In this document: positions 14,931-60,318 of the stretch, piece by piece
How the letters are laid out: every line of letters starts with the position of its first letter
Numbering within the stretch: the stretch's first letter is position 1
NCBI GenBank assembly: GCA_947447955.1
Contig: CANFLS010000002.1
Coordinates: forward strand, 135,072-199,071
DNA length: 64,000 bases
Reading direction: 5' to 3'
From: Flavobacteriales bacterium
Lineage (GTDB): Bacteria; Bacteroidota; Bacteroidia; NS11-12g; UBA955
Notes under the pieces: model-generated
Database searches by the model: none
What the model saw: the letters and a program-made list of their open reading frames with translations, nothing else
What the model was told of the DNA's origin: nothing
Translations under genes and position numbers: made by a program

Positions 14931-14938
14931 CAAATGTA
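14931..14938 (-). promoter_or_regulatory. -7 box TACATTTG of the saccharopine dehydrogenase-like gene
   Basis: Minus strand TACATTTG-TCTA-ATG(14926). Confidence 0.55.
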
Positions 14939-14944
14939 AAAAAC

Positions 14945-14952
14945 TATCTTTG
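14945..14952 (+). promoter_or_regulatory. -7 box TATCTTTG of the HMCES/YedK gene
   Basis: TATCTTTG-AAT-ATG(14956). Confidence 0.65.
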
Positions 14953-58287: not shown

Positions 58288-59820
58288 TTAAAGTTTTACC
58301 GTATTCGTACAATTCGTTAATCTATTCATAACAACTGGCAAAGTTAACAATGCCAACATATCAAAAATTGGAGGACCAACTGGTTGGCCACTCACAGCCA
58401 CACGAAGTGGTTGCAAAATTTCACCCGTTTTTATACCCTTAGATTCGCAATAGTTTTTAAATTGTTGTTCAAATTCAGCAGGATTAGATGCTGCATTTTC
58501 TTGAAAATAAACACCCAAATCTAACAAAAGTTGATTCGTTTCTGGCTTCCATTTTTTAGCAACAACATCTACATTGTATTCCGTTGGCTCAACAAAGAAG
58601 TAGGCAGCTGCTGCAGGAATTTCATTCGCAAACTGTACTTTTTCCCTCAACAAACCAATGATTGTTTCTGCATATTCGCGATTAATATTTCCGAATTTTT
58701 CCTCGAAAATCGAAGCAATTGCATCGTAAATTTCAGAAACAGACTTCTTATTCATGTACTGGTGGTTGAACCAAAATGCTTTGTTCAAGTCAAATTTGGC
58801 ACCACTCTTACTCACTCTATCTAAACTAAATGCTTGTATCAATTCATCCATTGAAAACAACTCTTGGTTATCGCTCGGATGCCATCCTAACAAAGCTAGC
58901 ATATTGGCAACTGCTTCAGGGTAGTAACCAGCTTCTCTATAACCGGAGCTTTTTTCATTTGTTTTGGGATCTGTCCAATCAATAGGAAAAACTGGGAATC
59001 CCAAACGATCTCCATCTCTCTTGCTTAATTTACCATTTCCTTCAGGCTTCAACAACAAAGGCAAATGTGCAAACTCAGGCATATTTTCTTCCCAACCCAA
59101 GAAACGATAAAGCATAACATGCAAAGGAGCACTTGGCAACCATTCTTCGCCGCGAATTACATGAGAAATTCCCATTAAATAATCGTCAACTACATTGGCC
59201 AAGTGATATGTTGGCATGCCATCTCCTTTAAGAAGGACTTTGTCATCCATTGTATTTGTGCTTACAACTACCCAGCCTCTAATTACATCATGAAAACGCA
59301 CTTCTTCTTTTCTAGGAAGTTTAATACGAATCACATAATTATCACCGCGATCTAAACGCTCTTTCACTTCATCAGCAGATAAAGTCAAAGAGTTTTTCAT
59401 ACTCATTCGGCTAATAGAATCATAAGCAGGTTGCATTTTACTCGCTTCTAATCTCTTACGCATTTGCTCTAAATCATCTTCAGAATCAAACGCATAGTAT
59501 GCCAATCCCTCAGAAATCAATCTTTCGGCGTATTGGCGGTACATTGGTTTTCTTTCGCTTTGGCGATACGGCGCGTGAGGACCACCTTGTTCTGGTCCCT
59601 CATCAATTTCAATACCAACCCATTTTAAACTTTCACGGATATACTCTTCAGCTCCAGGAACAAAGCGGTTTTGATCGGTATCTTCGATACGCAAAATCAT
59701 GGTACCACCATGTTTTCGAGCTAATAAATAATTGTACAAAGCTGTTCTTACACCACCAATGTGTAAAGGTCCTGTAGGACTTGGAGCAAAACGAACGCGA
59801 ACGGGTCTTTCTGTTGACAT
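58288..59820 (-). CDS. gltX: Glutamate--tRNA ligase
   Basis: VRVRFAPSPTGPLHIGGVRTALYNYLLA, RIEDTD, KLSKRDGD; start ATG 59820. Confidence 0.97.
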   Translation of the reverse strand: MSTERPVRVRFAPSPTGPLHIGGVRTALYNYLLARKHGGTMILRIEDTDQNRFVPGAEEYIRESLKWVGIEIDEGPEQGGPHAPYRQSERKPMYRQYAERLISEGLAYYAFDSEDDLEQMRKRLEASKMQPAYDSISRMSMKNSLTLSADEVKERLDRGDNYVIRIKLPRKEEVRFHDVIRGWVVVSTNTMDDKVLLKGDGMPTYHLANVVDDYLMGISHVIRGEEWLPSAPLHVMLYRFLGWEENMPEFAHLPLLLKPEGNGKLSKRDGDRLGFPVFPIDWTDPKTNEKSSGYREAGYYPEAVANMLALLGWHPSDNQELFSMDELIQAFSLDRVSKSGAKFDLNKAFWFNHQYMNKKSVSEIYDAIASIFEEKFGNINREYAETIIGLLREKVQFANEIPAAAAYFFVEPTEYNVDVVAKKWKPETNQLLLDLGVYFQENAASNPAEFEQQFKNYCESKGIKTGEILQPLRVAVSGQPVGPPIFDMLALLTLPVVMNRLTNCTNTVKL

Positions 59821-59835
59821 AAAAATTGAAAGGTG

Positions 59836-59843
59836 CAAAGATA
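59836..59843 (-). promoter_or_regulatory. -7 box TATCTTTG of gltX
   Basis: Minus strand TATCTTTG 15 nt before ATG. Confidence 0.6.
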
Positions 59844-59862
59844 CGGAAACAAACTTGTTTTG

Positions 59863-59870
59863 TATCTTTG
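59863..59870 (+). promoter_or_regulatory. -7 box TATCTTTG of the yqeY-like gene
   Basis: TATCTTTG-CAGT-ATG(59875). Confidence 0.65.
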
Positions 59871-59874
59871 CAGT

Positions 59875-60318
59875 ATGAATCTAATTGAACAAGTGAATGC
59901 TGGTGTAATGGCAGCAATGAAAGCCAAAGACGCCGATAGGTTGAGAGCACTTCGTGGAATTAAAAGTGCATTTTTATTATTGCAAACTGGCGAAGGTGTT
60001 ACCGAAGTAACTGACGACATGTGTATTAAAGCACTACAAAAGCTTGCAAAACAAAGAAAAGATTCTTTAGAAATTTACAATACCCAAGGTAGAGAAGATC
60101 TTGCTGTTGTTGAAAGACAAGAACTTAGCATCATTGAAGAGTTTTTACCTGCTCAAATGAGCGAAGCTGATGTTCGCGCAAAAATCCAAGCTGTAATTAC
60201 CGAATCAGGTTTTTCTGGACCAGAAAATATGGGCAAAGTAATTCCATTGGCAATGAAAGCATTGAGCGGTCAAGCAGACGGAAAATTGATTTCACAATTG
60301 GTTAAAGAGCTTTTATAA
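59875..60318 (+). CDS. GatB/YqeY domain-containing protein
   Basis: MNLIEQVNAGVMAAMKAKDADRLRALRGIKSAFL...EEFLPAQMSEADVRAKI...GQADGKLISQLVKELL; ATG 59875. Confidence 0.93.
   Translation: MNLIEQVNAGVMAAMKAKDADRLRALRGIKSAFLLLQTGEGVTEVTDDMCIKALQKLAKQRKDSLEIYNTQGREDLAVVERQELSIIEEFLPAQMSEADVRAKIQAVITESGFSGPENMGKVIPLAMKALSGQADGKLISQLVKELL

Follow-up and report, generated by a model that had tools for sequence, protein, structure and literature searches.

A probable compact divergent promoter made of two outward-facing -7 boxes between gltX and yqeY in a Flavobacteriales genome

In a stretch of 64,000 nucleotides from a Flavobacteriales bacterium (the window), two translation-related genes, for glutamyl-tRNA synthetase (gltX) and a YqeY protein (yqeY), diverge from a symmetric 37 bp element at 59835-59871. 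The element is very probably a compact divergent promoter read by the housekeeping sigma factor of Bacteroidota, with two -7 boxes, a leaderless yqeY and a gltX leader of 11 nt. Its two consensus -7 boxes point away from each other, and the 17 bp A/T-rich centre would serve as upstream DNA common to both. The yqeY mRNA driven by the plus-strand box is predicted to begin with the A of the yqeY start codon, and the gltX mRNA driven by the minus-strand box 11 nt ahead of the gltX ATG; the housekeeping sigma factor would act at both, and on steric grounds the polymerase would occupy the element in a single orientation at any one time. The palindrome arises because the same non-palindromic promoter word is placed twice in opposite orientations, and neither a dimeric regulator nor a shared -7/-33 element is needed to account for it. 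The sequence, its conservation, the fixed box-to-ATG spacing and the single copy are directly established. Such palindromes in Bacteroidota can thus be read as two -7 boxes and not as regulator sites, and here the compact divergent promoter joins the glutamyl-tRNA synthetase gene with the YqeY gene. The features are as follows:

58288..59820, minus strand: gltX, glutamate--tRNA ligase, 510 aa (TIGR00464)
59835..59871, no strand: 37 bp element with an outward-facing -7 box on each side of a common 17 bp centre, invariant in five species
59836..59843, minus strand: gltX -7 box TATCTTTG, predicted start 59831, 11 nt leader (spacing rule from F. johnsoniae)
59845..59861, no strand: A/T-rich centre, putative upstream spacer for both promoters, with the inner repeat AAACAA-AC-TTGTTT at 59847-59860; 17/17 identical in genomes G006 and G007
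59863..59870, plus strand: yqeY -7 box TATCTTTG, matches TAHHTTTG, predicted start 59875 = A of ATG
59875..60318, plus strand: yqeY, 147 aa (PF09424)

The element reads GCAAAGATACGGAAACAAACTTGTTTTGTATCTTTGC, and a sequence-only reading of the window had given its letters and coordinates exactly. That reading had also named both flanking genes correctly (gltX by TIGR00464, YqeY by PF09424) and had taken the outer arms for the -7 boxes of the two divergent genes, which is supported: TATCTTTG is found on each strand, fits the consensus and is correctly placed before both ATGs. In F. johnsoniae the -7 box is TAHHTTTG, transcription starts 4-5 nt downstream of it, and a motif at -33 can hardly be made out (PMC6847099). 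The element carries TAnnTTTG, in the TAHHTTTG form, at 59863-59870 on the plus strand and at 59843-59836 on the minus strand; the yqeY ATG lies 4 nt past its box, and by the F. johnsoniae spacing rule the predicted yqeY and gltX start sites are 44 bp apart. The gltX start was taken as the ATG at 59820 and not as the upstream TTG of the ORF list, on the basis of conservation and promoter position. With TATCTTTG on both strands at the right gene distance, the element resembles the Bacteroidota sigma-ABfr promoter (-33 TTTG / -7 TAnnTTTG; PMC6847099; PMC7366714), but differs from it in having two outward copies with one spacer and no -33 TTTG. A TTTG or TTG at -33 is absent from both promoters, where -38 to -30 reads AAAGATACG or AAAGATACA; the opposite -7 box falls in this region, but in the wrong orientation for a -33 TTTG. 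Since the -33 motif is also weak in F. johnsoniae, its absence does not disqualify the element as a sigma-ABfr promoter.

The two arms, GCAAAGATAC and GTATCTTTGC, are perfect 10 bp inverted copies, and their paired pattern occurs once in the window (0.00 expected from shuffles). The element had been described as a near-perfect 37 bp palindrome; this holds for the arms and is overstated for the whole, where only 13 of 18 pairs match in register about the outer dyad axis at 59853.0 and the inner repeat AAACAA-AC-TTGTTT has an axis of its own at 59853.5 (both axes read from the sequence). Because the outer and inner axes differ by 0.5 bp, the inner repeat is a separate dyad and the 37 bp do not form a single unbroken palindrome. 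The inner symmetry is no more than mildly unusual: 1.4% of shuffles yield an inner repeat of 6 bp or longer with a loop of 3 or shorter, and a comparable repeat is present in 7 of 554 17-mers (~1.3%) upstream of -7-like boxes in the source genome. This and the other source-genome statistics refer to a 459 kb sample, made up of the window and stretches L035-L054 of G000. The arms could pair in RNA, but a transcription terminator or attenuator hairpin with a 10 bp stem is extremely improbable. Both predicted starts lie outside the element, with both arms upstream of each, so neither mRNA would carry both arms; this was the ground for rejecting a terminator. There is also no T-run after the stem, and the arms fit the promoter consensus in the right place.

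All 37 bp are identical across five species of the genus, while the four-fold sites of gltX and yqeY show only ~51-52% identity between G000 and G006, the largest distance among them. If the positions were free and are treated as independent, the chance of 37 identical bases at the four-fold rate is ~1e-11. We concluded that the element is functional, because it is invariant in five species while the four-fold sites are only about half identical; the symmetric arms proposed by the sequence-only reading are likewise unchanged in the five species and under strong constraint. For the centre we compared other promoter spacers of the window, which are often 15-17/17 identical in G007. Only two other window promoters are comparable in G006, with spacers identical at 11/17 positions each versus 17/17 for the centre of the element. 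With other spacers conserved in G007 and only two controls in G006, the conservation proves function and not an additional bound factor, and we rejected it as proof of the latter. The fully conserved 17 bp centre in G006, where the others stand at 11/17, leaves room for an extra bound factor.

The strict paired motif is single-copy in each close genome, with one copy in the source genome, and across 70 family genomes the gltX/yqeY locus accounts for 15 of its 28 sites. In sister genera (loci L006, L007, L009, L010 and L055-L061) gltX and yqeY are also divergent, 32-33 bp from start to start, and the yqeY and gltX boxes persist facing outward, although only 1-2 bp separate them (for example GCAAAGTTAACTATCTTTGC) versus 19 bp in the window; the predicted start sites are there 26-27 bp apart versus 44 bp. 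These observations bear on whether the centre might also be an operator, bound through the inner AAACAA-AC-TTGTTT by a dimeric regulator of both genes. The rarity of the inner repeat among comparable spacers and the complete conservation of the centre in five species are consistent with such a site, but the centre is missing altogether in the sister genera, and good conservation to G007 is seen in other promoter spacers too. Moreover, the inner motif with one mismatch allowed has 4 matches in the 459 kb of the source genome, itself included, and no clear second promoter site with the motif was found in this sample. An operator role for the centre is thus quite unlikely. The element occurs once per genome and so is not a regulon operator; a multi-copy operator is ruled out by the one strict copy in G000 and, for the inner motif, by the lack of any other clear promoter site across the 459 kb.

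Gene order varies as well. In the window's genus, at L008, L013-L017 and L020, yqeY is followed by gltX on one strand, and gltX begins at the yqeY stop codon or close to it. Divergent in some genomes and codirectional in others, the gltX-yqeY pair therefore remains linked even as the geometry of its promoter changes, and the alternative yqeY-then-gltX arrangement suggests that the two genes are coupled as neighbours. It had been proposed that each promoter recruits polymerase via the -7 region of the other, so that transcription of gltX and yqeY would be mutually exclusive or balanced. The distance of about 19 bp between the boxes on which this proposal drew was measured as 19 bp, and with just 44 bp between the predicted starts the footprints of two polymerases should overlap. 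In E. coli, competition at bidirectional promoters is documented under strong activation of one direction (PMC12825309), and polymerase competition between the gltX and yqeY promoters would be sterically plausible. However, the use of the opposite -7 box as an upstream element is disfavoured by a gap that changes from 19 bp to 1-2 bp, by the missing -33 TTTG and by the wrong orientation of that box; given the changing geometry, a mechanism that requires the boxes to be 19 bp apart is difficult to square with the data. The codirectional order of yqeY and gltX in some genomes of the window's genus also speaks against a switch, as does E. coli, in which no competition in basal transcription was seen at any of the five bidirectional promoters tested (PMC12825309). 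A mutually exclusive switch is therefore unlikely, and the compact divergent promoter with two separate boxes remains the preferred reading. It shares with the E. coli bidirectional promoters (Warman et al.; PMC12825309) short symmetric DNA and, by prediction, divergent transcription with overlapping polymerase sites. Those promoters, however, have one shared -10, and their starts are typically 10, 18 or 23 bp apart (PMC12825309); the gltX/yqeY element has two separate -7 boxes with a 19 bp gap and its predicted starts are farther apart.

Divergent -7 pairs are found elsewhere. A second compact pair lies at 14931-14952 of the window, between ORFs of 401 aa (minus strand) and 238 aa (plus strand), with a gap of 6 bp and ATGs 3-4 nt past the boxes; it is kept in G007. 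Of 79 genomes of the order, 64 have at least one match to the divergent pattern that is closely followed by an ATG, and at least 45 sites among the matches listed for these genomes have a close ATG on both sides. When 139 genomes of the class were sorted by gap, those with a match numbered 26 (0-4 bp), 21 (5-9 bp), 44 (10-14 bp), 32 (15-19 bp), 50 (20-24 bp) and 41 (25-29 bp); the 10-14 and 15-19 bp figures were hand-counted for the same 139 genomes from larger searches of 276 genomes. Gaps of 10-14 and 20-24 bp are thus better represented among divergent pairs than gaps of 5-9 and 15-19 bp. Helical phasing is hinted at by this alternation, in a class sample that is uneven and made of related genomes that are not independent. 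The 19 bp gap of the window falls outside the favoured gap classes. Overlapping boxes that share a TA (CAAADDTAHHTTTG), which come nearest to the shared -10 of E. coli, show only a modest excess over the reversed-pattern control in the 79 genomes of the order and are absent at the gltX/yqeY locus.

The spacing of the yqeY box reaches well beyond the window. Among 54 yqeY loci from the order, 37 have a TAHHTTTG box that ends exactly 4 nt before the ATG; the distance is 5 nt in 3 more, and several further loci have near-consensus boxes at 4 nt. The upstream neighbours vary among many of the 4-nt loci, including loci where the neighbour is not gltX, so the 4 nt spacing belongs to the yqeY promoter itself and does not depend on the pairing with gltX. 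From this spacing yqeY appears to be leaderless, with a predicted mRNA that starts exactly at the start codon. As a class-wide feature a leaderless yqeY is ruled out: Bacteroidales relatives have leaders of 18-19 nt or no nearby box. In the 459 kb sample, 30 of 145 long-ORF ATGs stand 4 or 5 nt after a box, compared with 3 of 56 for the reversed box, and 4-5 nt is the commonest spacing of an ATG after a -7 box. Bacteroidota mRNAs lack Shine-Dalgarno sequences. Leaderless mRNAs make up 5.5% in F. psychrophilum, and leaders under 10 nt about 3.7% in B. thetaiotaomicron; yqeY resembles such messages in having its start codon at the predicted 5' end, but the prevalence of the 4-5 nt spacing suggests many leaderless mRNAs in this lineage, unlike the published Bacteroidota maps. 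If the leaderless reading is true, leaderless mRNAs would be used far more in this order than in the Bacteroidota examined to date, and yqeY would make a good test gene for ribosome start on leaderless messages in the phylum. A broader and more tentative possibility is that many genes of the order are leaderless, with a -7 box fixed 4 nt ahead of the AUG, yqeY being a deeply conserved case, and that divergent pairs pack back-to-back with a roughly helical gap preference, which would give Bacteroidota a form of bidirectional promoter made of two -7 boxes and not of one shared -10. At L001-L005, L008 and L013-L017 a TTG often stands just in front of the -7 box of the yqeY promoter (TTGTATCTTTGC or something close to it) and may make it an extended -7 element.
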